64,000 nucleotides of DNA from Gemmatimonadota bacterium (lineage in GTDB: Bacteria > Gemmatimonadota > Gemmatimonadetes > Longimicrobiales > RSA9): assembly GCA_039715185.1 (NCBI GenBank), contig JBDLIA010000001.1, positions 1-64,000 of the forward strand, read 5' to 3'. A program made the position numbers and the translations under genes. The stretch's first letter is position 1. Each line of letters opens with the position of its first letter. Shown here one piece after another: positions 1 to 16,543 of this stretch. Under the pieces are notes generated by a model, which saw only the letters and a program-made list of their open reading frames with translations, was not told the origin of the DNA and ran no database searches.

Positions 1-810
1 ACGGCCGACCCCGACGTGGCCGCGACCGCGGCGGCAGCTGGCGTCGACCGAATCTTCGTGGACCTCGAGGAGCGCGGTAAGGCCCTGCGCCAGGCGGGTC
101 GGGACACGGTCATCAGCGGCCACACGCTGGAGGACGTATCCCGCGTCCGCGAGCGCGTCCCCGCCGGATCGCTCCTGGTCAGGATCAACCCGCCCCACGC
201 CGGTACCGCCGAAGAGGTGGAGTCGGCGCTCGCCGCGGGCGCCGACATCCTCATGCTGCCGATGTTCGAGTCGGTGGGCGAGGTAGTGTCTACGGCCGCC
301 TGCATCGGTGGACGAGTAGCCTTCGTACCCCTCGTGGAAACCGCCGCCGCGCTGCGGGCCGTACCGGATGTCGTGGCTGTACCGGGGGTCTCCGAGCTGT
401 ACATCGGACTCAACGACCTGCACTTCTCGCTCGGGCGAGACTTCCTGTTCGAGCCCCTCGCCGAGGGACTGCTGGACGCCGTTGCGGCGGCGTGCGCACA
501 AGCCGGCGTGCCCTTCGGGTTCGGTGGCGTCGCGCGCGTGGGTCAGGGCGACCTGCCCGCGGAGTGGATTCTGGGCGAGCACGTGCGGTTGGGCTCGACC
601 GCCGTCATCCTGTCGCGCGCGTTCACGCACGGCGCGGACGGCGGCCACATTCCGGGCGATGGATCCGCGCTTCGCCGCGAGCTGGACCGGCTCCGGGAAG
701 TCGAGGCCGAGCTCCGGCGGCGCACGCCGCAGGAGGTGAGCGGCAACCGTCGTCGGCTTGTCCGCCGAGTCAACGAGCTGGCGCGCGCGGCGCGCCCCAG
801 CCCCGGCTGA
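1..810 (+). CDS. HpcH/HpaI-type aldolase family protein, 5' truncated
   Basis: The frame is open from the first base, so the N-terminus lies upstream; about 269 residues are visible. Internal GTG codons (for example at 16) are unlikely to be the true start because family-like sequence is already under way. Recognisable TIM-barrel strands include VDLEERGK, LLVRINPP, ADILMLPMFES, AFVPLVETAAAL and ELYIGLNDLHFSLG. The glutamate of PLVET and the aspartate of GLNDL sit where HpcH/citrate-lyase-like enzymes bind their divalent metal (family knowledge). Members catalyse aldol addition or cleavage with pyruvate- or acetyl-CoA-type donors. The stop is 1 bp from the asnB start, in an operon of surface-glycan genes, so a role in making or decorating an unusual sugar is plausible. 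The substrate cannot be assigned. Confidence 0.75.
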   Translation, partial: TADPDVAATAAAAGVDRIFVDLEERGKALRQAGRDTVISGHTLEDVSRVRERVPAGSLLVRINPPHAGTAEEVESALAAGADILMLPMFESVGEVVSTAACIGGRVAFVPLVETAAALRAVPDVVAVPGVSELYIGLNDLHFSLGRDFLFEPLAEGLLDAVAAACAQAGVPFGFGGVARVGQGDLPAEWILGEHVRLGSTAVILSRAFTHGADGGHIPGDGSALRRELDRLREVEAELRRRTPQEVSGNRRRLVRRVNELARAARPSPG

Positions 811-811
811 T

Positions 812-2632
812 ATGTGCGGCATCTACGGCGCGTACGATCCTGAGGGACCGCCACCGGACGGGCGGGTGCTGGACGCGATGGGGCGTTCCATTTCGCACCG
901 GGGCCCCGACGACCGGGGCGTGTTCCTGGGCGATCGGTGCGCGCTCGGCAACGAAAGACTGTCGGTCATCGACCCGCTGGGAGGACACCAGCCCTTCGCA
1001 TCCGCGGACGGGTCCGTGGTGGTGGTTCAGAACGGCGAGATCTTCAACTACCTGGAACTCGCCGAGGACCTCAGGCGGGAGGGAACCCGTTTCGAAACCG
1101 CCTCTGACACCGAGGTGATCCTGCGCCTGTACGAGCGCTACGGCATCGACTTCCTGCGCATGCTGAACGGCATGTTCGCCATCGCGATCTGGGACGCGCG
1201 CGAACCCTGCCTGTGGCTGGCCCGGGATCGTATCGGCATCAAGCCGCTGTTCACCTGGCGAGACGCCGGCCGGGTTCATTTCGCCTCCGAAATCAAGGCG
1301 CTCCTGCGCGCGGGTCTCCACGCCGCCCCCGACTACCGCGCGTTGCACCATTTCCTGGGGTTCAACTACGTGCCGCCTCCGCTCACGGCGTTTCGCGGGG
1401 TGCGCCACGTCGTCCCCGGCTGCGTGGAGCGGTACGGACCGGACGGGCGCAGCGAACGACGCTGGTGGGATCTGATCCAGGACAGGGAAGCCGACGCTGC
1501 CGGGCCGGATTGGGGGGAGCGATTCCTCGAGATTCTGGCGGACGCCGTACGTATCCGCATGCGCGCCGACGTGCCCTACGGCGCCTTTCTCTCGGGCGGA
1601 GTCGACTCGTCCACCATCGTCGCCCTCATGGCCCGCCAGAGCGAGACACCCGTCCGGACGTTCTCGATCGGATTCGAGGACGAGCGTTTCGACGAGTCCC
1701 GTTACGCGGCTCAGGCGGCCGAGCGATTCGGCACGGTCCACACGCAGCGCGTCGTCGACCCGGACATGCTCGATTCGTGGCCCCTGGCGCTGTACCACTG
1801 CGACCAGCCGCACGGCGACGTGTCGTTTCTTCCCACGCTGCGCGTGTCCGAGCTGGCGGCCCGGGACGTGACGGTCGTGCTTACGGGCGATGGGGGCGAC
1901 GAGCTCTTCGCGGGCTACGACAAGTATCGGGATTTTTTCGCGGGTCCGACGCCGGACGGCGAGTTGGACTTTCGGGCGGCCTATTCCGAGGCGCTGGAGC
2001 TGTTTACGGCGGAGGGCAGGAGGTCGCTGTACGGAGCCGGGCCCCTGGCGGAATGGGCCGGCGAGTCCAACGCCGACTTTCTGGCTCCGTGGTTCGACGC
2101 CTCCCGCTCCCTCGACCGCGTAAACAGGGCCCTGCACATCGACATGAGCCTGCTGCTGCCGGGCAACAACCTGGTCAAGCCCGATCGGATGGGGATGGCC
2201 GTCTCGCTGGAGGCCCGGACGCCGCTTCTGGATCACCGGATGATGGAGTTCGCGTTTGGAACGCCGGGTCGGTGCAAGCTTCGGGGCGGTGTCACCAAGG
2301 TCGCCTTCAAGGATGCGGTGTCCGACCTGATCGGCGTCGACCTCGCGCATCGTCGCAAGCAGATGCTCACCGTGCCCATCGGAGAGTGGTTCCGGGGGAA
2401 GCTGGCGCCGTTTGTGCGCTCGGTCCTGCTGTCGGAGGAGTCCCGCGACCGAGCGCTGTTCGAGCCCCGAGCGGTCTCCGCTCTGATCGAGGCCCACGAG
2501 CGAGGGCACGAGAACAGAACGCGCGAACTCCGCGCTCTCCTGGCGGTCGAGCTGTGGGCGCGAGTATTCCTGGATCGAGCCTGCGAATCGCCCCCGGTGG
2601 CGGAGGAGATTCTGGGCGTCGGCATCGGTTGA
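812..2632 (+). CDS. asnB: Asparagine synthase (glutamine-hydrolysing) family amidotransferase
   Basis: 606 residues. The ATG at 812 gives MCGIYG, placing Cys2 as the N-terminal nucleophile of a class II glutamine amidotransferase domain (about residues 2-200), which requires exactly this start. The synthetase domain carries the PP-loop SGGVDSS (residues 261-267), GDGGDELFAGYDKY and the C-terminal signature EARTPLLDH. Free asparagine synthesis is the textbook reaction: ATP activation of aspartate, with ammonia channelled from glutamine. Stand-alone AsnB-like proteins in polysaccharide clusters often amidate a sugar carboxylate or other acid instead. Here it lies between an aldolase and an O-antigen ligase, so a glycan-modifying role is the preferred inference. 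All visible catalytic motifs are intact. Confidence 0.9.
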   Translation: MCGIYGAYDPEGPPPDGRVLDAMGRSISHRGPDDRGVFLGDRCALGNERLSVIDPLGGHQPFASADGSVVVVQNGEIFNYLELAEDLRREGTRFETASDTEVILRLYERYGIDFLRMLNGMFAIAIWDAREPCLWLARDRIGIKPLFTWRDAGRVHFASEIKALLRAGLHAAPDYRALHHFLGFNYVPPPLTAFRGVRHVVPGCVERYGPDGRSERRWWDLIQDREADAAGPDWGERFLEILADAVRIRMRADVPYGAFLSGGVDSSTIVALMARQSETPVRTFSIGFEDERFDESRYAAQAAERFGTVHTQRVVDPDMLDSWPLALYHCDQPHGDVSFLPTLRVSELAARDVTVVLTGDGGDELFAGYDKYRDFFAGPTPDGELDFRAAYSEALELFTAEGRRSLYGAGPLAEWAGESNADFLAPWFDASRSLDRVNRALHIDMSLLLPGNNLVKPDRMGMAVSLEARTPLLDHRMMEFAFGTPGRCKLRGGVTKVAFKDAVSDLIGVDLAHRRKQMLTVPIGEWFRGKLAPFVRSVLLSEESRDRALFEPRAVSALIEAHERGHENRTRELRALLAVELWARVFLDRACESPPVAEEILGVGIG

Positions 2633-2653
2633 GGTCGCCACCGTGAAGCGCCT

Positions 2654-3877
2654 ATGCTCTCGCTAGCCGTAGCTCCGTTGCAGCTGGCCGTTGCCTTCCT
2701 GGCGCCGGTAGCCGGGCTGCCGACCGCGCTCGCGCTCACCGTCGCGCTGATGCCACTGGGCAACGTCTATGTCGGCGGCGTGGCGCTCGGCGTCGTCGCC
2801 GCCTGGTACGCGGCGGCGGCATCTGCCCCAGGCGCGGACCGGCCGGTGCTCATGCCCGGGCTGCTGGTCTGGTTCTGGGGCGGGTGGATGGTGGTCGCCG
2901 CGGTTTCGACCGCGTTCAACGGCGCCACGCCACGTCAGGTCGGCCAACTGGCCGAATTCCTGTTCTACGGGGGCATCGCCACGCTCTCATACAACCTCGC
3001 GGCCTCCGTGGAGGGCGCGCGTCAGCGCATCCTCGCGGGCCTCATCGCCGCGGCGTGGCTGCTGGGGGTGGCGTCGATCGTCGCGGCGCGGGCGGAGGCC
3101 ACCGATCTGCTGTTCGGCCGCAACGAGGGCGCCTTCTTTCTCCTGCTGTCCGGTGTCGTGGTGCCGCTCGCCGTTCTGGAAGGAGGTCGCCTCCGACGGC
3201 GCTGGTTCGCGTGGGCCACGATCGGCGTCTCAGTGGGCGCCATAGTCGTATCCGATTCGCGGGCCGCGATGGCCGGGGCGGTTCTGTGCGGCGCGGGTTG
3301 GCTCGCGTGGCGGATCGCGATCGGCAGGCGGAGAGGCCTGTCCGCGCTCGTATTGAGCATCGGGGTCGCTGGTGGAGCTTTCTTCGTCGTCCTGCGCGGC
3401 CCGGCCTCACTCGTGCCCGGGGACTTCTCAACGCTGGAGCGGGTCGCCCTGCTACAGCAGAGCTATGCTCTTTTCCTCGAGCGGCCTCTGGTCGGACACG
3501 GCTGGAACGCGCTCGAGTCTCTGCTCCGGTCGTCCGTGTACACCGAGCTGGTATATCCCCATCCGCACAACACGTACGCGCGCTTCGCCGCGGAGCTCGG
3601 GGTGGCCGGACTCGGGCTCCTGCTCGTGCTTTACGGGGGGCTGTTCCTGCGCGGCCTGCGTGCTCACCGGGCGGGCCTCGAGGAAGCGGCCCTGCTGGCG
3701 CTCCTGCTCGCTCTCACGCTCAGCGCCATGTCCATGGTCGCGGTCGTCTTCTACGGCGCTAGCAGGGCGCTCGTCACGGCGGTGCTGCTCGGCGTGGCGT
3801 GCTCGTATCGCTCCGGCGAGGGTGATCGGCGCGCCGCCGACGGGCATGGCCGGGCGGGACCGGAGAGGGTGGGATGA
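2654..3877 (+). CDS. O-antigen ligase/polymerase (Wzy_C) family membrane protein
   Basis: 407 residues, highly hydrophobic, with about ten to twelve predicted membrane segments across the whole length. The large periplasmic loop near residues 290-320 contains HPHNTYARFAAELG, the histidine-asparagine region typical of Wzy_C/WaaL proteins. Such enzymes polymerise lipid-linked repeat units or transfer the finished chain to an acceptor at the periplasmic face of the inner membrane. The start is 21 bp after asnB, and the TGA overlaps the ATG of the next glycosyltransferase by 4 bp, indicating translational coupling. The sequence cannot separate a Wzy polymerase from a ligase. Confidence 0.8.
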   Translation: MLSLAVAPLQLAVAFLAPVAGLPTALALTVALMPLGNVYVGGVALGVVAAWYAAAASAPGADRPVLMPGLLVWFWGGWMVVAAVSTAFNGATPRQVGQLAEFLFYGGIATLSYNLAASVEGARQRILAGLIAAAWLLGVASIVAARAEATDLLFGRNEGAFFLLLSGVVVPLAVLEGGRLRRRWFAWATIGVSVGAIVVSDSRAAMAGAVLCGAGWLAWRIAIGRRRGLSALVLSIGVAGGAFFVVLRGPASLVPGDFSTLERVALLQQSYALFLERPLVGHGWNALESLLRSSVYTELVYPHPHNTYARFAAELGVAGLGLLLVLYGGLFLRGLRAHRAGLEEAALLALLLALTLSAMSMVAVVFYGASRALVTAVLLGVACSYRSGEGDRRAADGHGRAGPERVG

Positions 3878-4980
3878 AGATCCTGCAGGCGCGGTCCGGG
3901 TTCGAGGACAACGGCCCCGGCACGCAGGCGCTGACCATCTCGCGTGAGCTGCGGGATCGGGGGTACGAAGTGATCTTCGCCGCCGGTGGCGGCGACTATC
4001 TCGGGACCATCCGCGACGCCGGGTTCGACGTGGCGTTGATCCCCGCCATGCGCCGCGAGAAGCGCGACCCCGCGACCGTCGCTCGAGCGGCTTGGGCGCT
4101 GCGCCGGCTAATCCGCGAGCGCGGCATCGCAGTCGTTCATGCCCACAACGCGGCGGCCGCCCTCACCGCGTGGGCGGGCTCGCGATTGGGCGGGAGCGGC
4201 GTGCGGCTGGTGCACTCCGTCCGTGGCATCGAGCTGCGGGCTTCGCACCGGTGGCGGAACTGGATATACCGCCGGTATCCGGCCGAATTGCTGGCGGTTT
4301 CCCAGTACACGCGCGACAAGCTGCTCGAAGTGGGAGCCGATTCGGCGCGCATCAGGGTGTCCTACAACGGGGTGGATACGCGGCGTTTCGATCCGGATAG
4401 CGTGAGCGGGGCCGACGTCCGCCGTAAATACGGCCTCGGCGACGGGGTCGTCGCCGGGCACGTGGGCTCCATGAAGACGCGCGCGAAGGGACAACACGTG
4501 TTGATTCGCGCCTTGGGACGGCTCCGCGAGCGCGTCCCTGACCTGCGGATTCTTCTCGTCGGGGACGGCGTGGAGCGGCCTCGGTTGGAGGAGCTGGCGC
4601 GGGCCGAGGGCGTGGCGGACAGGGTCGTCTTCGTGGGGCGCAGATTCGACGCCGAGCGCTTCCACGCGGTGTTCGACGTCTACGCTCAGCCGTCGGTGTG
4701 GGGCGAGATGTTTCCCAACTCCATCCTCGAGGCGATGGCCATGGCCACGCCCTGGGTGGGTAGCCGACTCGGCGGCCTGGCCGAGCTGACCGCGAACGGG
4801 CGCGCCGGAACACTCGTCGAACCGGGCGACGTGGACGCGCTTGCCGACGCGCTCCAGAGGCTTGCGCTGGATCCACGGGAGCGCGCGGAGAGAGGATCAG
4901 CGGGCCGCGCGGAGGTGCGGGAGCGCTTCTCGGTCGGCGCGGTGGTGGACGGCATCGTGGCCGCGTACACCGATGAGTGA
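3874..4980 (+). CDS. Glycosyltransferase family 4 protein
   Basis: 368 residues with a GT-B fold. The N-terminal domain has GPGTQALTISRELRDRGYEV, typical of GT4 acceptor domains. The C-terminal nucleotide-sugar domain has VGSMKTRAKGQHVLIRAL, then GEMFPNSILEAMAMATP containing the spaced acidic pair that contacts the donor, and GGLAELTANGRAGTLVEPGD. It probably adds a hexose from a UDP- or GDP-sugar to a lipid-linked oligosaccharide in the cytoplasm. It overlaps the upstream ligase by ATGA and the downstream sugar transferase by 8 bp, so it belongs to the same operon. Donor and linkage cannot be predicted. Confidence 0.85.
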   Translation: MKILQARSGFEDNGPGTQALTISRELRDRGYEVIFAAGGGDYLGTIRDAGFDVALIPAMRREKRDPATVARAAWALRRLIRERGIAVVHAHNAAAALTAWAGSRLGGSGVRLVHSVRGIELRASHRWRNWIYRRYPAELLAVSQYTRDKLLEVGADSARIRVSYNGVDTRRFDPDSVSGADVRRKYGLGDGVVAGHVGSMKTRAKGQHVLIRALGRLRERVPDLRILLVGDGVERPRLEELARAEGVADRVVFVGRRFDAERFHAVFDVYAQPSVWGEMFPNSILEAMAMATPWVGSRLGGLAELTANGRAGTLVEPGDVDALADALQRLALDPRERAERGSAGRAEVRERFSVGAVVDGIVAAYTDE

Positions 4981-5596
4981 GGGTCCCGACTCACGTTTCT
5001 CGGGTGCTCCGCCGGGCGCCGGCGGGTGGTTTGGGGATTTGGCCGTTCGTGCGTTGGACGTAGCGGTCGCCGCCGCGGCACTGGTCGTTCTGGCGCCCGC
5101 GCTGCTCGCGATCGCGGCGTGGATCCGCATGGACTCTGTCGGCCCAGCGCTGTTCAGACAGCGCCGCGTGGGACTCCACGGCGCGTCATTCGAGTTACTG
5201 AAGTTCCGCTCCATGACCCAAGGCGCCGCGCGCATCGGCCCGCTCTCGACGAGTCCCAGGGACCCCAGGATAACGAGGGCGGGTGCGATCCTGAGGGGGA
5301 CCAGCGTGGACGAGTTGCCTCAGCTTCTCAACGTGCTGGCGGGACACATGAGCCTGGTTGGGCCACGCCCCGACTTGCCTCACCAGATCGCCGCGCTCTC
5401 GCCGGAGGACCGGTCCGCGCGCTGCTCGGTGCGGCCCGGGTTGACGGGTTTGGCCCAGGTCGAGAACAGGCACGGCGGGACGCCGCAGGAGCGGCTGGGC
5501 TGGGACCTCGATTACGCCGCGCGAAGATCAATCTGGCTCAACGCGCGGATCGTGGCCCGGACGTTGGGCGCGATGGTCACCAAGCGATCGTACTGA
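4973..5596 (+). CDS. Initiating sugar transferase (polyprenyl-phosphate phosphoglycosyltransferase)
   Basis: 207 residues from the ATG at 4973, which overlaps the end of the preceding gene. One N-terminal hydrophobic segment (about residues 27-48) is followed by the bacterial sugar transferase domain: LFRQRRVGLHGASFELLKFRSM, DELPQLLNVLAGHMSLVGPRPD and RPGLTGLAQV. The aspartate-glutamate pair in the VDELPQ region is the catalytic dyad of monotopic phosphoglycosyltransferases. This enzyme transfers a sugar-1-phosphate to undecaprenyl phosphate and starts repeat-unit assembly. Its length matches short WcaJ/PglC-like proteins that lack the extra N-terminal membrane domain. It is the best marker that this cluster builds a lipid-linked glycan. 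Confidence 0.88.
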   Translation: MSEGPDSRFSGAPPGAGGWFGDLAVRALDVAVAAAALVVLAPALLAIAAWIRMDSVGPALFRQRRVGLHGASFELLKFRSMTQGAARIGPLSTSPRDPRITRAGAILRGTSVDELPQLLNVLAGHMSLVGPRPDLPHQIAALSPEDRSARCSVRPGLTGLAQVENRHGGTPQERLGWDLDYAARRSIWLNARIVARTLGAMVTKRSY

Positions 5597-5598
5597 GC

Positions 5599-6825
5599 GT
5601 GCCTGAACGGTCTACGGTCCTCTTCGTCGCGTACGGCGGCGGGCACGTCAGGACGCTATTGCCCGTCGCACGGTCGCTCTACAGCCGCAGCCGTCAGGCG
5701 GTTCGGTTCATGGCTCTCACGACCGCCGGCGCCGTGGTCGAGGGAGCGGGCCTCCCCACCGAGGGGTTTCGCCACTTGCCAGAGGCCCGTGACGCCCGCG
5801 TGGCGGAGACGGGCCGGAGGCTTGCTGCATCCCTGCCTTCGAGCGTCGTGAGCGAGGCAGAGTCGGTCGCCTATCTAGGGCTGTCCTACCTCGACATGGA
5901 GGCGCGACTGGGGCACGCCGCCGCAGCCCGCCGTTACGACGAACTCGGTAGGCAAGCGTTCCTTCAACTGGGCGTCTTCCGCCGAGAGTTCGCCCGCCGC
6001 CGGCCGGACCTGGTGGTGGCCACCAACTCGCCGCGCGCGGAGCGCGCCGCGTTGGAGGTGGCCGGCGAGTTGGGGATCCCGTCGATCTGCGTCGTCGACC
6101 TCTTCGGCACGCGCGAGGCGCGGCGGCTGGCCCGACCGGGCTACGGCCGGCGCCTGTGCGTTCTCTCGGAGGCAGTGCGTGAGGCGATGGTTGGCGCGGG
6201 GAGGCCGCCCGAGGAGGTAGTCGTTACCGGCAACCCCGCGTTCGACGCTCTGCTCGGCGCCGAGACGCGAGCTGCCGGGTCCGCGCTCCGGTCGCGCAAA
6301 GGCTGGGGCGACTCGCCGGTGATCCTGTGGGCGACCCAGCCGCTGCCCCGCGCAGCAGAGCAGGCCGCCTATGCGCGCCGGATCGACGCGCGCGTGCGAG
6401 CGCTAGCCCGGGCGCGTCCGGACTGGACGTTGGTGGTGCGGCGTCACCCGAGCGAGGCGAGGGACGATCGGCCGGACCTCGGCGCCCTCGAACAGAGCGC
6501 GCGCGAGGAGCCCCTGGCCGAGCTTCTTCACGCGGTGGACGTGGTCGTGACGATGGGTTCCACGGTCGGCCTGGAGGCGGCACTCGCCGGGCGTCGGGTG
6601 GTCCAGATCCTGGGCTCCACCTACTCCGCTGATGTGCCCTACGCCGAAGAGGGGATCGCCATCGCCGCGCCCGACCCGGAAAGTCTGGAGCTGGCGGTCG
6701 AGCGGGCCCTGGACTCACCGGCAGCGGCCGACCCCGGTCTCATGGGCGACGGGCGGGCGACCAGCCGCGTCGTCGATGAGATTGATACCCTCTTGAAGGC
6801 GTCGCGCCGTGGAGCGGACCGGTGA
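5599..6825 (+). CDS. Glycosyltransferase/UDP-GlcNAc 2-epimerase-fold protein
   Basis: 408 residues from GTG 5599, 2 bp after the sugar transferase stop. The start VLFVAYGGGHVRTLLPVARSL is a GT-B glycine-rich loop. The middle has RRPDLVVATNSPRAERAALEVA, and the C-terminal half has VVVTGNPAFDALLG and VDVVVTMGSTVGLEAALAGRRV, the pattern of nucleotide-sugar-binding domains in MurG-, LpxB- and WecB-like proteins. It could be a glycosyltransferase or a hydrolysing or non-hydrolysing 2-epimerase; the motifs do not decide. It overlaps the flippase start by GTGA, so it is coupled to the same glycan operon. Confidence 0.65.
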   Translation: MPERSTVLFVAYGGGHVRTLLPVARSLYSRSRQAVRFMALTTAGAVVEGAGLPTEGFRHLPEARDARVAETGRRLAASLPSSVVSEAESVAYLGLSYLDMEARLGHAAAARRYDELGRQAFLQLGVFRREFARRRPDLVVATNSPRAERAALEVAGELGIPSICVVDLFGTREARRLARPGYGRRLCVLSEAVREAMVGAGRPPEEVVVTGNPAFDALLGAETRAAGSALRSRKGWGDSPVILWATQPLPRAAEQAAYARRIDARVRALARARPDWTLVVRRHPSEARDDRPDLGALEQSAREEPLAELLHAVDVVVTMGSTVGLEAALAGRRVVQILGSTYSADVPYAEEGIAIAAPDPESLELAVERALDSPAAADPGLMGDGRATSRVVDEIDTLLKASRRGADR

Positions 6826-8117
6826 GCGCGGGGGACCGACTCATCTTCAGGGGGGCGGCGGTCAGCTACGTAATTCGGGTGCTGGGGGTCGGGGCCGGCC
6901 TGGGGCTGCACGTGGCGTTGGCGCGCTGGCTCGGAGAGTCCGAGTACGGAGGGTACGCGTTCGTCACTTCGGTTCTGCCCATAGTGGGAATCCTGGCCAC
7001 CCTGGGGCTGCCGATGGCCGCTGTGCGCTTCTGGCCGGAATACGGGGCGGCATCGGACTCGGCGCGCCTGGCCGGGTTCCACGCCTTTTCCACGCGCGCG
7101 GTGATCGGGGCGGGCGCCGCTGGCCTGCTCCTGACCCTGCTGGCGGTGCCGTTCCTGGGAGCCGAGGGAAACGTCATCCGACGGTCCACCCTGGTCGCGT
7201 CGCCCCTCATCCCGATTCTCGCGCTCATTCGCTATCGGCAGGAGGCTCTCCGAGGGCTGAAGAGGATCGCCGCCTCTCAGGCGTTCGAGCAGGTCATACT
7301 GCCCGTAGGCATCCTGCTCGCCGCTGGCGCCTGGATCCTCGGCGGCAGGTCGCTGGACGCGCCGACGGTGATCCTCATTCACCTGGGGGTCGCCGCGGCC
7401 GGTATCGTCGGCCTGGGCCGGCTCCTCCGGCGGGACATCCCGGATGCGGTGCCCGCCTGGACCAGACAGGACATGCGCGTGTGGTTGGCGGTGTCGTTGC
7501 CGCTCATGGGATCGACCTTCGTGTCGGGTTTCATGCCGCGCGCCGCGCCGCTCTTTCTCGGCATCCAGGGGAGTCCCGCCTCGGTGGCGCATTACGTCGC
7601 CGCCTTCAAACTGGCCACGGTGCTGAAGTTCTCGCTCAGCGCCGTCAACGCGATCCTGGCTCCGACGGTTGCCGAGCGCTACGGCCGCGGAGACCGCGCG
7701 GCCTTGCAGGCAGAGGTGAGCCGGACGGTGCGACGGGCGTTCGCCATCACGGTGCCCATCGCGCTGGCGATCGTCGCGTTTCGCGGACCCTTGCTGAGCC
7801 TGTTCGGAGAAGGCTTCGTGGTGGGGAGCCGCGTTCTGCTCATCCTCGTGGGAGCCGAGCTCGTAAACGTCGCGGCCGGACCCGTCGGTCCCCTGCTCAC
7901 CATGACCGGCCACCAGAGGTTCTATCTCGGGGTTCTGAGCGCCGTCGCGGCGGTCACGGCCGGCGCCATGCCGCTGGCGATCGCCGCGGGAGGCATAGAA
8001 GGCGCAGCCTGGGTCGCGCTGCTGGCCGCGGTCCTCTGGAACGGCATCCTGGCGGCCGGCACGATCCGGCGCACCGGCATAGCCCCCTACCTCACCGTTG
8101 GGCGGCGGTCCGCGTGA
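6822..8117 (+). CDS. Wzx-type oligosaccharide flippase (MOP superfamily)
   Basis: 431 residues with roughly 12 to 14 hydrophobic helices. The N-terminus LIFRGAAVSYVIRVLGVGAGLG followed by ALARWLGESEYGGYAFV is characteristic of polysaccharide biosynthesis (PF01943-like) flippases. It would flip undecaprenyl-pyrophosphate-linked repeat units to the periplasm for the Wzy-like protein encoded at 2654. The GTG start overlaps the preceding stop, and the stop overlaps the sulfotransferase start by 4 bp. A MurJ-type lipid II flippase is a less likely alternative given the neighbourhood. Confidence 0.82.
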   Translation: MSAGDRLIFRGAAVSYVIRVLGVGAGLGLHVALARWLGESEYGGYAFVTSVLPIVGILATLGLPMAAVRFWPEYGAASDSARLAGFHAFSTRAVIGAGAAGLLLTLLAVPFLGAEGNVIRRSTLVASPLIPILALIRYRQEALRGLKRIAASQAFEQVILPVGILLAAGAWILGGRSLDAPTVILIHLGVAAAGIVGLGRLLRRDIPDAVPAWTRQDMRVWLAVSLPLMGSTFVSGFMPRAAPLFLGIQGSPASVAHYVAAFKLATVLKFSLSAVNAILAPTVAERYGRGDRAALQAEVSRTVRRAFAITVPIALAIVAFRGPLLSLFGEGFVVGSRVLLILVGAELVNVAAGPVGPLLTMTGHQRFYLGVLSAVAAVTAGAMPLAIAAGGIEGAAWVALLAAVLWNGILAAGTIRRTGIAPYLTVGRRSA

Positions 8118-8917
8118 GTGGGTCTCTGCCGACGGATGAATCGGCGGCGGCCGGCGCCGCCGCGCCGTTCGCGATCATCACCGGGATGCACCGCTCCAAC
8201 ACGTCGCTGCTCGCCCGGGTGCTGAATCACGCGGGGCTGGCCGTGGGTGACCAACTGATCGGCGCCAACGAGTTCAACCCGTACGGCCATTACGAGGACG
8301 ATCCCATCGCGCGTTGGCACAAGGAGGTGCTGGCGCGTAGGGGCCTGGGCTGGCGGGTTCTGACCGACCCCCGAATCAGGGTCGACCCCGAGGAATTCCA
8401 GGGCGCGGTCCGCTACGTGGAAGCCCGTCGCGCTCGGGCATCCGGACCCTGGGGGTTCAAGGTGCCGCACGCGGTGCTGGCGCTGGACGCGTGGGCGAGA
8501 TTCCCCGAGGCGCGCTTCGCGTTCATCTTCCGGCACCCGCGGGAGGTGATCGGTTCGCTGCTCCGTCGCGCCGGCATCCAGCTGTACTACAAGCCGTACT
8601 ATCCGGGCCAGGCCATGCGCACGTACGTCGTCTACAACAGGCTCATTCGCGATTTCCGCCGGGCGCACCCCGCGCGCTCGTACCTGATCGACAACCGCGA
8701 CCTGCTGGTCGATCCGGCCGGCGTGGTCGCCCATCTGTCGGAGCGCCTGGGTCTCGGCGCGTTGTCCCTTCGAGAGGGCGGCCTGGTCGATCGCGGGCTG
8801 ACCGGGCGAACACACGGCGGCCTGCCGGAGCTCGTCGCCGCCGGTCTCTCTCGAGCCCGGGCGCCGAAGGTGGTATACCGTGAACTGGTAGCGTTGAGCG
8901 ACTCCGCCGGACGCTAG
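8114..8917 (+). CDS. Sulfotransferase family protein
   Basis: 267 residues from GTG 8114. The N-terminal segment FAIITGMHRSNTSLLARVL is the 5'-phosphosulfate-binding loop, in which GMHRSGTS is the usual form. FAFIFRHPREVIGSLLRRAG is the 3'-phosphate-binding region with the conserved Arg and Ser. Members transfer sulfate from PAPS to hydroxyl groups. As the last gene of the coupled run 812-8917 it probably sulfates the glycan made by this cluster. No PAPS synthesis genes are in the window, so activated sulfate would come from elsewhere. Confidence 0.78.
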   Translation: MSGSLPTDESAAAGAAAPFAIITGMHRSNTSLLARVLNHAGLAVGDQLIGANEFNPYGHYEDDPIARWHKEVLARRGLGWRVLTDPRIRVDPEEFQGAVRYVEARRARASGPWGFKVPHAVLALDAWARFPEARFAFIFRHPREVIGSLLRRAGIQLYYKPYYPGQAMRTYVVYNRLIRDFRRAHPARSYLIDNRDLLVDPAGVVAHLSERLGLGALSLREGGLVDRGLTGRTHGGLPELVAAGLSRARAPKVVYRELVALSDSAGR

Positions 8918-8980: not shown

Positions 8981-11179
8981 ATGAGCACCGCGCCTGCCAC
9001 CGTCCCGGGCGGCGGGCTGGAGTCACTCCCCCCGCGCCTTCGAAAAGCCGTCGAGCCCGTCGCAGACCGGCTCGATGTGGACCTCGTCGCGCGCGCGTAC
9101 CGGTTCGCCGAGGGTGCTCACGGCGAGCAGAAGCGGGCCTCCGGCGAGGAGTACTCGGTACACCTCGTGGAGGTGGCCCGGATACTCGCCGATCTGCACC
9201 TGGACACGTCCACCGTCGCGGCCGCGCTGATACACGACGTGGTGGAGGACACGGGCGTAGGTATCGACGATATCCGCGCCGAGTTCGGGGACGACGTCGC
9301 GCTCATCGTCGACGGCGTCACCAAGATCGGCAAGGTGCGCTTTCGTACCAGTACCGAGCAGCAGGTGGAGAACTACCGCAAGCTGCTCCTGTCGATGGCG
9401 CAGGACGCGAGGGTCATCCTCGTAAAGCTGGCCGATCGCGTCCACAACATGCGTACGCTCGACCACCTGAAGGAGGAAAAGCGGCGCCGCATCGCGCTCG
9501 AAACCCGGGAGATCTACGCCCCGCTCGCGCACCGCCTGGGAATGGCGCAAATCAAGTGGGAGTTGGAGGACCTCTGCTTCAAGCACCTGGAGCCGGAGGC
9601 CTACGTGGACCTCGTCGGCAACGTGCGCGAGAAGCGCGCCGAGCGGGAGAAGCTCATCGAGCAGTTCCGGGTCCCCCTGGTCGAGGAGCTCGAGGAGGCG
9701 GGAATCCCGTGTGAGGTGTACGGGCGGCCGAAACACCTGTGGTCCATCCACCGCAAGATGCAGCAGCGGCAGGCCTCCTACGAGGAAATCTACGACCTCA
9801 TGGCGATCCGGGTCGTGACCGACAACGTCGCCAACTGCTATCACGCGCTGGGCATCATCCACAACCGCTGGACGCCTCTCCAGGAGCGCTTCCACGACTA
9901 CATCGCAACGCCCAAGTCGAACATGTATCGGTCACTTCACACGACCGTGTTCGGGTCGGGCGGGCGGCTCTATGAGATCCAGATCCGCACCGCCGAGATG
10001 CACCGCACGGCGGAGTACGGGATCGCCGCGCACTGGCGCTACAAGGAGGGGAGCGGCACCGGAAACGAGGTCGACGACACGCTGAGCTGGTTCAGGCAGG
10101 TTCTGGAGTGGCAGCAGGACACCCGCGAGCCGGAGGAGTTCATGGAGTTCCTCCGCATCGACCTGTTCCAGGATGAGATCTTCGTGTTCACGCCGCGCGG
10201 CGACGTGAAGCAGCTTCCCAAGGGCGCGACGCCCATCGACTTCGCCTTCGCGGTCCACACCGAGGTGGGGCTGCACTGTTCGGGCTCACGCGTGAACGGG
10301 CGCATCGCGCCGCTGTCCCGACGGTTGCGCAACGGAGATACGGTCGAGGTCCTGACGGACGCGAAGCAGAAACCTTCGCGCGACTGGCTCGGGTTCGTCA
10401 AGACGGCCCGGGCGCGCCAGAAGATCCGGCAGTGGATCAAGCAGGAGGAACTGGACTCCTCCGTGGCCCTCGGCAAGGAGATCTTCGAGCGCGAGCTCAA
10501 GAGGGCGCGCCGTTCGAAGCCGTCGGACGCCGAGTTCGCGGAGGCGGCGAAGGCCCTGTCGCTACCCACGGTGGACCACGTGCTCGCGGCGCTGGGCCGG
10601 GGAGAGTTGGGTATCGCCGCGATCATGCGCGAGCTCTTCGACGTGGAGGCGCCGCCGCGCCGCCCGCCCTCGGCGTTCGAGCGGCTCGTCGAGCGCGTCC
10701 GCAAATCCGGCAAGGGCGTGCGTATTCAGGGTCTCGAAAACCTGATGGTGCGCTACTCGCAATGCTGTCAGCCGGTGCCCGGGGACGAGGTGATCGGATT
10801 CATCACGCGGGGCCGGGGCATTTCCATCCACAGGACGGACTGTCCGAACGTTCTGCACCTGTCGCGCAACCCGGACCGGCGCGTCGAGATCGAGTGGAAG
10901 GCGGAGAGCGGGGATCGTTTCTTCGTACGCCTGGAGGTGGACGGGGACGACCGGCGCGGGTTGCTCTCGGACATCTCCAAGGCGATCACCGAGACCGGAA
11001 CGAACATCCAGTCCGCCGAAATCAAGGCGGTCGAGGGCGGTATGACCGGGTCCTTCGTCGTCGAGGTGCAGAACCTGGATCACCTCAAGAAGGTGATGCG
11101 GCGCATCCGCGCCGTGGAGGGAGTGCTGTCGGCCGAGCGACGCGAGCACTTCAACGAGGCCGACCTGGAGTCCGATTGA
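8981..11179 (+). CDS. rel: Bifunctional (p)ppGpp synthetase/hydrolase
   Basis: 732 residues, the usual length. Domain order: HD hydrolase (about residues 45-200) with YSVHLVEVARI, the HD pair at 85-86 followed by VVEDT, and ADRVHNMRTL; synthetase (about 235-350) with YDLMAIRVV, the ATP/GDP-contacting stretch ending SNMYRSLHTTV, and EIQIRT; TGS (about 390-450); a helical/zinc-finger region with CCQPVPGD; and a C-terminal ACT domain (about 650-715). The metal-binding hydrolase residues appear intact, so both making and degrading (p)ppGpp are expected. The 63 bp upstream hold no convincing promoter. The stop overlaps a TTG start of the aminotransferase, an unusual partner for this gene. Confidence 0.96.
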   Translation: MSTAPATVPGGGLESLPPRLRKAVEPVADRLDVDLVARAYRFAEGAHGEQKRASGEEYSVHLVEVARILADLHLDTSTVAAALIHDVVEDTGVGIDDIRAEFGDDVALIVDGVTKIGKVRFRTSTEQQVENYRKLLLSMAQDARVILVKLADRVHNMRTLDHLKEEKRRRIALETREIYAPLAHRLGMAQIKWELEDLCFKHLEPEAYVDLVGNVREKRAEREKLIEQFRVPLVEELEEAGIPCEVYGRPKHLWSIHRKMQQRQASYEEIYDLMAIRVVTDNVANCYHALGIIHNRWTPLQERFHDYIATPKSNMYRSLHTTVFGSGGRLYEIQIRTAEMHRTAEYGIAAHWRYKEGSGTGNEVDDTLSWFRQVLEWQQDTREPEEFMEFLRIDLFQDEIFVFTPRGDVKQLPKGATPIDFAFAVHTEVGLHCSGSRVNGRIAPLSRRLRNGDTVEVLTDAKQKPSRDWLGFVKTARARQKIRQWIKQEELDSSVALGKEIFERELKRARRSKPSDAEFAEAAKALSLPTVDHVLAALGRGELGIAAIMRELFDVEAPPRRPPSAFERLVERVRKSGKGVRIQGLENLMVRYSQCCQPVPGDEVIGFITRGRGISIHRTDCPNVLHLSRNPDRRVEIEWKAESGDRFFVRLEVDGDDRRGLLSDISKAITETGTNIQSAEIKAVEGGMTGSFVVEVQNLDHLKKVMRRIRAVEGVLSAERREHFNEADLESD

Positions 11180-12331: not shown

Positions 12332-13666
12332 ATGGACATTACGGTCATCGGCACCGGATACGTGGGATTGGTCGTAGCGACCTGTTTCGCCGAGTCGGGC
12401 AACGAAGTCACGGGCGCCGACCTCGACGAAAACAAGATCGGTCTGCTTCGGCGAGGGCAGTCTCCCATCTACGAGCCGGGCCTCGAGCCTTTGCTGCAGC
12501 GCAATCTGGACCAGGGGCGGCTCCGTTTCACGACCGACGTAGCAGCCGCTGTCCGGCAGGCCGACGTCGTCGTGATCGCCGTCGGCACCCCTCCTGACGA
12601 GGACGGCAGCGCCGATGTGACCCACGTCCTGGACGTCGCGCGCACGATAGGCGCGCACATGGACCGGGAGAAGGTCGTGGTCACCAAGAGCACGATTCCC
12701 GTAGGGACCTCGGATCGCGTGCGCGATACGATTGCGGCGCTGTCGCCACACCCGGTGCACGTGGCCTTCAACCCTGAATTCCTGAAGGAGGGCAGCGCCG
12801 TCTCGGATTTCATGAAGCCGAGCCGCGTGATCATCGGGACCGATTCGGAGAAGGCGAGGGATGTTCTGGAGGACCTGCACGAGCCGTTCGTGCGCAGCGG
12901 CAACCCCATCCTGCACATGGACGTTCGGTCCGCGGAGATCACCAAGTACGCCGCCAACGCCATGCTGGCGACGCGTATCTCGTTCATGAACACCGTCGCT
13001 CGGCTCTGCGACGCGGTCGGCGCCGACGTATCGCACGTGCGCAAGGGCATGGGGTCGGACGACAGGATAGGGCCGCGCTTCCTGTTTCCCGGCGTCGGCT
13101 ATGGGGGTAGCTGTTTCCCGAAGGACGTGAAGGCGCTGGCCGCGTCTCTTCGCAAGAACGGCGTCGACTCGGCCATCCTGGACTCGGTCGAGCAGGTGAA
13201 CGAGGGGCAAAAGCGGCTGCTGCTGGACATCGTCGACGAACTGTTCCCGGAGGGTCTGGCGGGCTGCTCGGCGGCGGTGTGGGGGCTCAGCTTCAAGCCG
13301 GGCACCGACGACGTGCGTGAGGCGCCTTCGCTGGTCCTCATCGAAGGGCTTTTGGCCCGCGGCGGAGAGGTCCGCGTGCACGACTTCCAGGCCTTGGAGG
13401 AGGTCCGCCGACTCCTCGGCGACAGGGTGACGTACTGGGAACACAACTACGACGCGCTGGACGGGGCGGATCTTCTTGCGGTGGTGACCGAGTGGCAGCC
13501 CTACCGCCGTCCCGACTTCGAGCGCATGCGGACCGCCATGCGCCGCCCTCTCGTGCTGGACGGTCGCAACCTCTACGAGCCGGATCGGATCCGGGCTCAC
13601 GGGTTCGAATATCGCGGCGTGGGTCGGGGTTCGGCGCCGACTCGCGCGACGGCGCCAGCGGGGTAG
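12332..13666 (+). CDS. ugd: UDP-glucose 6-dehydrogenase
   Basis: 444 residues. The N-terminal NAD-binding fold reads ITVIGTGYVGLVVATCFAES. The active-site cysteine is C261 in YGGSCFPKDVKAL, with the helper lysine in the same motif. The C-terminal UDP-binding domain contains AVWGLSFKPGTDDVREAPS. It oxidises UDP-glucose twice to UDP-glucuronate. It converges with the minus-strand UDP-glucuronate decarboxylase gene, leaving a 21-bp gap (13667-13687). Its product is the expected substrate of both minus-strand enzymes, so the three genes form a compact UDP-sugar module. Confidence 0.96.
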   Translation: MDITVIGTGYVGLVVATCFAESGNEVTGADLDENKIGLLRRGQSPIYEPGLEPLLQRNLDQGRLRFTTDVAAAVRQADVVVIAVGTPPDEDGSADVTHVLDVARTIGAHMDREKVVVTKSTIPVGTSDRVRDTIAALSPHPVHVAFNPEFLKEGSAVSDFMKPSRVIIGTDSEKARDVLEDLHEPFVRSGNPILHMDVRSAEITKYAANAMLATRISFMNTVARLCDAVGADVSHVRKGMGSDDRIGPRFLFPGVGYGGSCFPKDVKALAASLRKNGVDSAILDSVEQVNEGQKRLLLDIVDELFPEGLAGCSAAVWGLSFKPGTDDVREAPSLVLIEGLLARGGEVRVHDFQALEEVRRLLGDRVTYWEHNYDALDGADLLAVVTEWQPYRRPDFERMRTAMRRPLVLDGRNLYEPDRIRAHGFEYRGVGRGSAPTRATAPAG

Positions 13667-13687: not shown

Positions 13688-14644
13688 CTACAGCGTGCGC
13701 GCCTTTGCGTCCTCTTCGCGCACGAGGTCCCTGAGGTAGGGAATCGTGCGCTCGAGACCCTCGCGCAGGGATACGCGCGGTTCCCAGCCAAGCAGCTCTC
13801 GGGCACGTGAGATGTCCGGCTGCCGGACCCTGGGATCGTCTTCCGGCAACGGGAGCCTGCTGATGGTCCCGCCGCCCACGAGCGCCGTCACCATGTGGGC
13901 CAGTTCCAGCACCGAGCACTCCGCCGGGTTGCCGATGTTGACCGGCTCGTGGTGCTCGGACATGAAGAGGCGGTAGAGACCCTCCACCTCGTCCTCCACA
14001 TAGCAGAACGAGCGCGTCTGCGAGCCGTCTCCGTACACGCTCAAGGGTTCGCCGCGCAGAGCCTGCACGATGAAGTTGGACACGACGCGGCCGTCGCCGG
14101 GTCTCATGCGTGGGCCGTAGGTGTTGAAGATGCGAGCGATCCTGGTGTCCACGCCGTGCGCCCGGTGGTACGCCATCGTCATGGCTTCGGCGAAGCGCTT
14201 TGCCTCGTCGTACACGCCGCGCGGTCCGACCGGGTTGACGTTGCCCCAGTACGACTCGGGCTGAGGATGCACCTCGGGGTCGCCGTAGACCTCCGAGGTG
14301 GAGGCCAGCAGGTAGCGGGCGCCCGCCTTTTTTGCCAGACCGAGCGTGTTGTGCGTACCCAGGCTCCCCACCTTCAGCGTTTGGATGGGGAGCTCGAGGT
14401 AATCCACGGGACTGGCCGGGCTCGCGAAGTGGAGTACTCCCTGGATCGTCGACCGTACGTCCATGTAGGTCGTCACGTCGTGATGGACGAGGCGGAAGCG
14501 CGGCTCGTTGGAGAGGTGGGCCAGGTTGCGCTCGGTGCCCGTGATGAGGTTGTCCACACCGATCACTTCATGGCCGCCGGCCAGGAAGCGGTCGCACAGG
14601 TGGGATCCGAGGAAGCCCGCGACTCCCGTGATCAGGACGCGCAC
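13688..14644 (-). CDS. uxs: UDP-glucuronate decarboxylase (UDP-xylose synthase)
   Basis: 318 residues from GTG 14644, which begins [20 protein letters not shown]; the frame continues upstream without family similarity. Diagnostic UXS motifs are present: [40 protein letters not shown] followed by [16 protein letters not shown] (YxxxK catalytic pair), and [11 protein letters not shown]. It oxidises and decarboxylates UDP-glucuronate to UDP-xylose with NAD recycled. It lies 25 bp downstream of the 4-epimerase gene on the same strand and is convergent with ugd. A dTDP-glucose dehydratase function is less likely given the motifs. Confidence 0.92.
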
Positions 14645-14669
14645 GAGCGCCCGGCTATCGAAGCTGCGA

Positions 14670-15647
14670 TCACGGCTGCGCCGGCCGGCGCTCGCGCAGC
14701 CACTCCACCATCCGTGGCACGCCCTCTTCCACGCCCACGCGCGGAGCGTAGCCCAGCAGCCGGGCGGCCTTGTCGATGTCGGCGTGCGTGCGCCGGACGT
14801 CGCCCGGCTGGGCGTCCAAGCGCGAGATGGAGGGGGCCGCACCCACGGCTTCCCCGATGAGCTCTATGAGTCGCGACAGGGACGTGGTGCGGTTGCCGCC
14901 CAGGTTTAAGATGTCGAACCCGGCTTGCGCCGCCTCCGTGTAGTCCAGGGCGGCCACCGTACCGGCGACGATGTCCCCGACCCAGGTGTAGTCGCGCGCG
15001 CTGGAGCCGTCGCCGAACACCGGGATCGGCTCACCGCGGAGCATGAGCTCGGCGAACTTGCGAATGGCCAGATCCGGGCGTTGCCGGGGGCCGTACACGG
15101 TAAAATAGCGCAGCGCGAGGACGGACCCGCCGTGGAGGTGCTGGTGCGCGTGACACAGGAGTTCGCCGCCGCGCTTGGTGGCCGCGTACGGGGAGATCGG
15201 GCGTTCTACGGGGTCGTCCTCGGAGAAAGGAACCTTGCCGTTGTCGCCGTAAACGGAGGACGACGAGCCGAACACGATGCGCCCCACTCCGCGCTCGCGG
15301 GCCGCCTCCAGAATCGCCTGGGTACCGAGCAGATTGGCTCGGGCGTACTCAAAGGGGTGGGCGATGGACGGCCGTACGCCGGCCTTCGCGGCCAGGTGGA
15401 CGACGGCATCGAACGATTCGGGCCCCAGCGCCCGGTCGAGCGCCTCCGAATCGGCGCAGTCCACCTCCAGCAGCGAGAACGAGGAGTGGCCGCGGGCTCG
15501 TTCCAGATTGGCGCGCTTTTCGGCCGGCGAGTAGAAGGGGTCGAAGTTGTCGACGCCTACCACGCTGTCGCCGCGCTCCAGAAGCTCTTCGGCAAGATGA
15601 CTACCGACGAACCCGGCCGCCCCGGTGAGGAGAATCCGCGCACCCAT
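14670..15647 (-). CDS. NAD-dependent epimerase, probable UDP-glucuronate 4-epimerase
   Basis: 325 residues from ATG 15647 ([20 protein letters not shown]). The segment [20 protein letters not shown] and [20 protein letters not shown] are typical of UDP-glucuronate/UDP-glucose 4-epimerases of the GAE/WbpP-like group. The catalytic pair is in [11 protein letters not shown] (YxxxK), preceded by [14 protein letters not shown]. The likely reaction is UDP-glucuronate to UDP-galacturonate. First gene of a two-gene minus-strand operon with uxs, divergent from the PHP phosphatase gene at 15764 across a 116-bp region. A general UDP-hexose epimerase remains possible. Confidence 0.85.
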
Positions 15648-15763
15648 GGCGCCGGGAATAGCGCGATCCACCCCCGCGGCGCAAGCCGCCCTGGCGTCCT
15701 CGAGGCGTCGACGGCAGCTTCGACGCCCATGAATCTCCTCGACAACAACGGCGGCCGGCACGG

Positions 15764-16543
15764 GTGATCGACATCCACGCGCACCTCATGCCCGCGGTGG
15801 ATGACGGGGCGGTCGACGACGACCAGGCCGCCGCCGCCCTGGCGCGGCTGCGCGCCGACGGTTTCATCGCGGTGACCGCGACCCCTCATCTCGACGCGTC
15901 CCTGGCGGCTCAACCAGCCGCCTGGGAAGCTCGGCTCGCGACCTTCGACCGGGCCTGGCAGCGACTCGGGGAAATCGCCAGCGAGGCCGCGCCCGGTCTG
16001 GAGCTGTACCGCGGCGTCGAGCTGATGCTGGATACGCCCGAGCCGGATGCATCGGACGGGCGCCTCCGGCTGGACGGCGGCGCCGCGTTGCTGATCGAGT
16101 TTCCCAGGCTCGGCGTGCCCCCGAGCATGCCGGCGGCGCTCGACGGGCTAGGCGCGCGCGGGCTGCGTCCGGTGATCGCCCACCCGGAGCGCTACGACGT
16201 GTCGCTGGCGGGAGGCGCCGAGCGCTGGCGGGCCACGGGCGCGGCGCTGGCGGTCAACGGTCGCGCGCTCCTCGGTCACTACGGCAGCGCGGCTCGGGCG
16301 GCCGCCCTAACGCTTTTCGAGCGGGGCCTGGTCGACCTGGTGGCGACCGACTACCACGCCCGCGGCGAGACGGGCGCGCCCGAAGTGCGCGAGCTCCTGG
16401 AGCGGGCGGCGGGCGCGGAGGTAGCCCACCTCCTGGTGAACGAGAACCCGCGGCTTCTGCTGGCCGGAGAGGCGCCCCTGCGGGTACCGCCTGTCCGCTT
16501 GCGCGGAGGTCTGCTGAGGCGACTGCGCGGGTTGTTCGACTAG
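15764..16543 (+). CDS. CpsB/YwqE-type tyrosine-protein phosphatase (PHP domain)
   Basis: 259 residues from GTG 15764. The start [19 protein letters not shown] is the metal-binding DIHxHxLP..DDG signature of CpsB/CapC/YwqE phosphatases, followed by [27 protein letters not shown] and [10 protein letters not shown], which supply further metal ligands. These manganese-dependent enzymes dephosphorylate the tyrosine-rich tail of bacterial tyrosine kinases that control capsule export and chain length. The matching kinase/Wzc is not in the window; it may lie left of it. Its position among UDP-sugar genes supports a polysaccharide-control role. Confidence 0.85.

Follow-up and report, generated by a model that had tools for sequence, protein, structure and literature searches.

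Candidate genes for a shewanellose-type branched sugar in a glycan cluster of a Gemmatimonadota bacterium

The first 64,000 nucleotides of contig JBDLIA010000001.1 (assembly GCA_039715185.1, a Gemmatimonadota bacterium), hereafter the window, open with a block of glycan genes in which a putative pyruvate aldolase of the HpcH/HpaI family, here named ALD, is followed by an AsnB-type amidotransferase. What could this pair make in a glycan locus? The gene content and comparison with related loci lead us to propose, with a probability of roughly 0.58, that the product of the cluster is a lipid-linked surface glycan beginning with a shewanellose-type sugar of nine carbons, branched at C4 and bearing a carboxamide. 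The genes predicted to add pyruvate (ALD), to amidate (AsnB) and to initiate the glycan (BacT) are genes 1, 2 and 5 of the block, and they are conserved together. Eight plus strand genes, with coordinates from open reading frames, occupy window positions 1-8917:

1..810, plus strand: ALD, HpcH/HpaI-type pyruvate aldolase of a glycan-linked subfamily, cut at its 5′ end (Pfam HpcH_HpaI PF03328, 4.4e-11)
812..2632, plus strand: AsnB, glutamine-dependent amidotransferase (Pfam Asn_synthase, 4.3e-92, with GATase_7)
2654..3877, plus strand: Wzy_C-domain protein, O-antigen ligase or polymerase type (Pfam Wzy_C, 4.5e-14)
3874..4980, plus strand: GT4 glycosyltransferase (Pfam Glyco_trans_1_4, 6.9e-34)
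4973..5596, plus strand: BacT, PglC-like initiating phosphoglycosyl transferase (Pfam Bac_transf, 4e-57)
5599..6825, plus strand: YGGGH, GT-B glycosyltransferase named after its motif (weak Pfam Epimerase_2 match, 1.4e-9; 25-row alignment; structure model)
6822..8117, plus strand: Wzx-type flippase (Pfam Polysacc_synt, 7.4e-13)
8114..8917, plus strand: sulfotransferase, a decoration gene outside the conserved core (Pfam Sulfotransfer_3, 3.3e-12)

The successive junctions are a 1 bp gap, a 21 bp gap, a 4 bp overlap, an 8 bp overlap, a 2 bp gap and two 4 bp overlaps, which bears out the tight eight-gene block of the original prediction, with a range from an 8 bp overlap to a 21 bp gap. A 111,757 bp contig has its end at window base 1, which truncates gene 1 at its 5′ end and leaves the upstream region beyond view; alignment places the start of the homologues about 7 residues earlier, the length missing from the N-terminus of ALD. 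Pfam identifies the parts of a Wzx/Wzy-type locus in the initiating transferase (gene 5), the flippase (gene 7) and the Wzy_C protein (gene 3). It also agrees with the aldolase, AsnB, sulfotransferase, ligase, flippase and initiating transferase of the earlier gene list, which left the sixth gene, YGGGH, unnamed although it is a conserved part of the module. The initiating transferase, listed there as a standard component, is present and is more than a standard neighbour, as ALD often lies beside BacT or is fused to it.

Searched with ALD alone, genome contigs yielded 160 relatives. The best 80 loci, with locus numbers prefixed L, were kept; their ALD proteins exhibit 39-55% identity to that of the window. 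The neighbours of the 80 loci were clustered and then annotated with profiles built from the clusters. On the same strand and at most 5 kb from ALD, BacT occurs in 57 loci, AsnB in 35 and a MurJ-like flippase in 32. Identity of the window AsnB is 46-60% to the 31 partner AsnBs of full length, which form one orthologue group with it, and 32-35% to five others: the AsnBs of L027 and L081, and a second AsnB each in L037, L061 and L066. With L027 and L081 set aside for their different AsnB, 33 AsnB-type loci are counted; L022 and L055, whose AsnB is partial, are included in the 33 and left out of the AsnB tree. The loci are not all independent, since L012 and L013 have identical ALD rows. The window AsnB has an MCGIYG start and an SGGVDS loop, and CGI or CGL together with SGG.DS is found in the 37 AsnBs listed. 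The usual order of an AsnB-type locus is MurJ, ALD, BacT, AsnB, YGGGH. MurJ is present in 30 of the 33 and the Wzx cluster of the window in 2; L061 and L066 carry both the Wzy_C and the Wzx clusters of the window. By their tree labels the AsnB-type loci belong to Pseudomonadota, Nitrospinota, Myxococcota, Bacillota, Bacteroidota and Planctomycetota, with one unassigned. The ALD-AsnB module is rare but scattered over several phyla.

A reciprocal search from AsnB covered 394 and 390 genomes of two orders, with at most three candidates scored per genome, so that misses are possible. Of the seven genomes that it returned, G430, G445 and G433 were seeds; the four new ones were G519, G812, G694 and G1068 (3 in the 394 and 1 in the 390). 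In all four new genomes ALD and BacT lie at most 2 kb from AsnB and YGGGH within about 6 kb; a PglF-type dehydratase lies within the 19-20 kb taken in 3 of the 4. A chance pairing of ALD and AsnB was set aside, given the 35 of 80 loci, the single orthologue group and the reciprocal result of 4/4. The functional link between the two proteins is well supported by these gene comparisons. The original prediction had staked its view of the pair on conservation with glycan genes elsewhere, and such conservation was found; of its two guesses at the product, an amidated sugar acid comes close to our best reading, while an unusual acyl substituent gained no specific support.

Other lineages have a 2-hydroxyacid or Ldh_2 dehydrogenase where AsnB would be. 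It lies at most 5 kb from ALD in 22 of the 80 loci and coincides with AsnB in L081 only; 24 loci have neither enzyme. These exchangeable partners are enzymes able to process a 2-oxo acid, which points to a 2-oxo acid as the product of ALD.

ALD itself scores 42.9 bits with the PF03328 profile against a cut-off of 25, and does not reach the equivalog TIGR02311 (20.3 versus 368.8 bits). Across an alignment of 64 rows, 24 columns are invariant, R61, E113 and D139 among them. E113 and D139 align with the motifs of solved HpcH/HpaI aldolases, YfaU among them, in which they are the metal-site glutamate and aspartate. The invariant R61 lies within the expected motif and may correspond to R70, the arginine with which HpaI binds pyruvate. 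After the first acidic motif the alignments reveal a conserved segment specific to ALD, GK..RQ..(D/N)T. The ALD model has a pLDDT of 94.5, and its first Foldseek matches are HpcH/HpaI aldolases with a modest TM-score of 0.56-0.58, one of them a pyruvate complex. YfaU is the best solved match of the ALD profile. By sequence, ALD is a distinct HpcH/HpaI subfamily with its own motif. An acyl-CoA (coenzyme A) lyase role was set aside: a single-sequence search matched acyl-CoA lyase proteins only, which also have the same fold, and the profile search ranks sugar and keto acid aldolases best and acyl-CoA lyases weaker. Counting its own genome, ALD is present in 4 of 395 sampled genomes of the window's phylum at E 1e-20 and in 7 of 146 sampled relatives at E 1e-10. 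Four of those six other relatives (L002-L005) have a 2-hydroxyacid dehydrogenase beside ALD, and no AsnB was seen on their short loci or the longer stretches of these. Two annotated plasmid records call the protein merely an "aldolase/citrate lyase family protein", and no report of such an aldolase in glycan loci was found in the literature searched.

Where does ALD act? In L017 and L018, ALD shares one open frame with a 4,6-dehydratase, and in L048, L050, L051 and L072 with a GT4 glycosyltransferase; in L071 the partner is BacT. In L032 and L034 ALD, BacT and GT4 form a single frame of about 890-910 residues. Pfam confirmed the ALD fusions of L017 and L034. The fusion frames are stop-to-stop readings of assemblies, mostly metagenomic ones. 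Fusion of ALD to the dehydratase, BacT and GT4 places the ALD step near the start of glycan assembly, and the coupling of a metal-dependent pyruvate aldolase to a 4-keto-sugar dehydratase suggests an aldol addition at C4. ALD frames of about 700-735 residues occur in L039, L042, L075, L076 and L078. By Pfam, the extra part of L039 is a decarboxylase-like domain dependent on pyridoxal phosphate (PLP), of the Orn/DAP/Arg decarboxylase fold; the gene that follows encodes a class IV aminotransferase. Near ALD in Bacteroidota and Clostridia loci (e.g. L025, L034, L038, L048) an uncharacterised nucleotidyltransferase, PF14907 (NTP_transf_5), recurs.

The proposed route has six steps. A 4,6-dehydratase (PglF/WbpM type or LegB) would convert UDP-N-acetylglucosamine (UDP-GlcNAc) to UDP-2-acetamido-2,6-dideoxy-hexos-4-ulose. 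ALD would hold pyruvate on a divalent metal and add its enolate to the C4 ketone, giving a CH2-CO-COOH branch. AsnB, with glutamine and ATP, would turn the branch carboxylate into a carboxamide, which when hydrated would be CH2-C(OH)2-CONH2. The PglC-like transferase would move the branched sugar phosphate onto undecaprenyl phosphate, and YGGGH would attach a legionaminic-type sugar. The flippase and the Wzy_C protein, in the window also the GT4 enzyme and the sulfotransferase, would finish the glycan. We infer what ALD acts on and what it makes, whether step three precedes step four, and which donor YGGGH uses.

The branch proposed for ALD and AsnB is the published branch of shewanellose. In a passage of PMC4052302, this sugar is given as 2-acetamido-2,6-dideoxy-4-C-(3′-carboxamide-2′,2′-dihydroxypropyl)-D-galactose, first described in Shewanella putrefaciens A6 alongside an 8-epilegionaminic acid derivative. 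The structure paper is cited there as reference 80, from 2002. No genes for shewanellose were found in the literature searched. The shewanellose reading draws on chemical logic, the fusions and co-occurrence. What the comparison shows directly is the gene content, the pair kept across phyla, the fusions, the invariant residues and the association with legionaminate genes.

The partnership with a legionaminic-type acid also has a counterpart in the loci. NeuA or NeuB lies in the flanks examined of 11 of the 35 AsnB loci, versus 0 of the 45 others; for WbpG, HisF or HisH the counts are 16/35 and 0/45. Genome-wide, the legionaminate marker NeuC_NnaA exceeds the cut-off in 27 of 34 AsnB-type genomes (L027 included), 2 of 16 dehydrogenase-type genomes (of 21, L081 set aside) and 2 of 14 controls. 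This contrast may come partly from shared ancestry, since the AsnB and dehydrogenase types differ in taxonomy. The genome-wide count is the cleaner check, because the local link to NeuA and NeuB preceded the shewanellose reading.

YGGGH is present in 25 of the 33 AsnB-type loci versus 1 of the 45 loci without AsnB (L026, on a contig that stops shortly after ALD). In an alignment of 25 rows Y12, G13, H16 and H283-P284 are invariant. Its model has a pLDDT of 92.1, and the best Foldseek matches, UDP-GlcNAc 2-epimerases and GT-B transferases, do not tell the donor apart. An HP motif is reported in PMC6388019 for bacterial sialyltransferases and Tannerella nonulosonate transferases. H283-P284 is a weak pointer in this direction; other GT-B enzymes can have HP too. 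It is proposed that YGGGH adds a legionaminic-type sugar, a donor suggested by co-occurrence and the HP motif.

One locus lies on plasmids of Pseudohalocynthiibacter aestuariivivens and Roseovarius pelagicus (L116, L117; NZ_CP049039.1, NZ_CP106737.1). It comprises AsnB, ALD, NeuB, MurJ, NeuA, NeuC, a PglD-like protein, DegT, WbpG, HisF, HisH, two PglC-like transferases and YGGGH. The cluster-built profiles agree with the annotation of the first plasmid. YGGGH is the only annotated glycosyltransferase in the plasmid gene table, which is incomplete by its own description. The gene content suits a two-sugar repeat, which would consist of the branched sugar and an amidinated nonulosonate. The two plasmids, from two genera, share one ALD accession (WP_165198424.1), which suggests a recent transfer of the glycan type.

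Does the genome of the window supply what such a glycan needs? Contig C114 (8,584 bp) carries a legionaminate cluster. LegC and NeuC exceed their cut-offs, the LegB-like protein reaches 462.8 bits against 475, and NeuB-like and NeuA-like proteins fall below theirs; a PglD-like gene is also present, and a CBS/nucleotidyltransferase gene is cut by the contig end. A PF02719 dehydratase of PglF size is encoded on contig C29, so that the LegB-like gene and this protein are both candidate sources of the UDP-4-keto sugar. Judged by its genes, this genome holds what the shewanellose-type proposal needs. Between NeuC and NeuA on C114 (G000, L092), a gene at 4147-5124 has no Pfam match at E 1e-5 and reads like a Wzz-type chain-length protein. 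The end of C114 and the start of the window have no exact overlap of 10-199 bases in either orientation tested, and the two are not taken to be adjacent. In this genome no N-acetyl sugar amidotransferase exceeds the cut-off (19 versus 203.2 bits), and an amidino group on its legionaminate is therefore not predicted. Two PF02563 (Poly_export) genes lie on contigs C29 and C21, and none on the contig of the window.

On the ALD tree, 3 changes account for the AsnB label, versus 26.5 in shuffles. The window ALD, whose row was flagged for its letter make-up, falls within the AsnB-rich half, the base of which is weak (85/15). It groups with L065 from Thioalkalivibrio (support 98/86), adjoining L017/L018 and L026/L040 (99/93). 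Around the window, this tree suggests an exchange of finishing enzymes.

Past position 8917 sugar genes run on to 16543, and the block may be longer than eight genes. By Pfam, the genes whose membership in the block is uncertain are:

from 11170, plus strand: DegT aminotransferase
12332-13666, plus strand: UDP-glucose dehydrogenase
13688-14842 and 14670-15761, minus strand: two epimerase/dehydratases
15764-16543, plus strand: CpsB/CapC phosphatase

A gene for a RelA/SpoT (p)ppGpp enzyme at 8981-11179, 63 bp past the sulfotransferase gene, overlaps the start of the DegT gene; a stringent-response gene is thus placed inside the glycan region. For the sulfotransferase, no relative of solved structure was found by sequence at E 0.001. 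Six AsnB-type loci (L013, L014, L016, L020, L037, L061) share a recurring trio: a methyltransferase, a sulfotransferase and c25, a protein of about 455 residues that has no Pfam match; the sulfotransferase of the window lies outside the cluster of theirs.

Several points weigh against the shewanellose-type product. The dehydratase counts cut both ways. In favor, a PglF-type dehydratase is found in 8 of the 33 AsnB-type loci, and a PF02719 dehydratase is present in 50 of 51 genomes versus 7 of 14 controls, a presence necessary to the proposal and not specific to it. Against it, the flanks examined of the other 25 loci have no PglF-type dehydratase, and the genome of L021 has no PF02719 match at E 1e-60. 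NeuC stays below the cut-off in 7 of the 34 AsnB-type genomes (L012, L021, L043, L055, L064, L073, L086), in one of which, L055, the gene is split over two contigs. The nearest relative of the window ALD, L065, has a dehydrogenase and no AsnB. The catalytic histidine of HpaI has no evident counterpart in the ALD alignment. For the ALD model, pyruvate kinases score as high as HpcH proteins in VIA-align (pyruvate kinases first, Z 18.5, root-mean-square deviation (rmsd) 3.8, 216 aligned; an HpcH protein tied, Z 17.8, rmsd 2.4, 186 aligned), a likeness that is of the superfamily fold only. The shewanellose reading preceded the passage of PMC4052302 and followed the local NeuA/NeuB link; only the genome-wide NeuC count came later. 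Finally, a UDP-glucose dehydrogenase lies downstream in the window, and AsnB here could amidate a uronic acid instead.

Of the other readings, the one that survives best, though we consider it unlikely, has ALD condensing pyruvate with a small free aldehyde to a hydroxy-oxo acid, which AsnB would amidate or a 2-hydroxyacid dehydrogenase would reduce, and which would become an acyl or ether substituent of a sugar. HpcH/HpaI enzymes act on small aldehydes, and acyltransferase genes lie near some loci (AcylT33 in 8 of the 33 AsnB-type loci, and Acyl_transf_3). However, the ALD fusions involve a dehydratase and glycosyltransferases, none an acyltransferase; among the constant partners neither a ligase nor a gene for CoA activation was recognised, a point on which no systematic search was made; and a terminal carboxamide would be odd on an acid that needs activation for acylation.

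That AsnB amidates a uronic acid of the glycan in the manner of WbpS, with ALD serving a separate step, appears improbable. AsnB-type amidotransferases of polysaccharide loci, of the WbpS type, are known for amidating uronic acids, and besides the UDP-glucose dehydrogenase of the window the second AsnBs of L037, L061 and L066 favor such a role. Yet a relative of that dehydrogenase is present in none of the 33 AsnB-type loci (flanks examined, phmmer E 1e-20), the partner AsnBs are one group tied to ALD and separate from the second AsnBs, and the reciprocal search from AsnB leads back to ALD every time.

It is very improbable that ALD makes a free 2-keto-3-deoxy sugar acid, like NeuB but from pyruvate, for activation with cytidine monophosphate (CMP): its best solved match YfaU is called a 2-keto-3-deoxy sugar aldolase and nonulosonate genes lie near ALD in some loci, but a NeuB for that reaction is already present in L015, L033, L053, L116 and similar loci, ALD keeps company with the initiating transferase, and NeuA/NeuB are absent from all 45 ALD loci without AsnB.

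The shewanellose-type proposal can be set beside systems already known. ALD resembles the class II aldolases HpaI, HpcH and YfaU in fold, Pfam family and the metal-site glutamate and aspartate, and differs from them by the GK..RQ..(D/N)T segment and by a context of glycan initiation rather than catabolism. The bacillosamine pathway runs PglF-PglE-PglD-PglC. AsnB-type loci have in common with it the dehydratase product as a branch point and the PglC-like transferase, but carry ALD and AsnB in place of PglE and PglD; DegT is present in 3 and PglD in 6 of the 33. Several dehydrogenase-type loci (e.g. L038, L044, L054, L070) also have PglD and DegT. YerE, the branching enzyme of yersiniose, uses thiamine diphosphate to place a pyruvate-derived branch on a 4-keto sugar nucleotide with loss of CO2. 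The reaction proposed for ALD would likewise put a pyruvate branch on a 4-keto sugar nucleotide, but would retain the full three carbons and depend on a metal. The legionaminic acid pathway (LegB, LegC, NeuC/LegG, NeuB/LegI, NeuA/LegF), found on C114 and in many AsnB-type loci, would make the presumed second sugar, not the branched one. For S. putrefaciens A6 itself, shewanellose is a chemical structure only, with no genes for it in the literature searched; the product proposed here has the same branch and would likewise occur with a legionaminic-type acid.

More broadly, we see an even chance that ALD represents a pyruvate aldolase subfamily acting on nucleotide-bound 4-keto sugars, which founds C4-branched nine-carbon sugars in several phyla. 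These would be finished alternatively by amidation with AsnB, as for shewanellose, by reduction with a 2-hydroxyacid or Ldh_2 dehydrogenase, or possibly by PLP chemistry with the fused decarboxylase-like domain and the class IV aminotransferase. No report of an aldolase reaction on nucleotide-bound 4-keto sugars was found in the literature searched. If the proposal is true, the cluster provides candidate genes for the known sugar shewanellose, and also an aldol route, dependent on a metal, by which sugars on nucleotide carriers gain carbon branches. Glycan loci with ALD would then gain a meaning, and branched sugars would become predictable from genomes.

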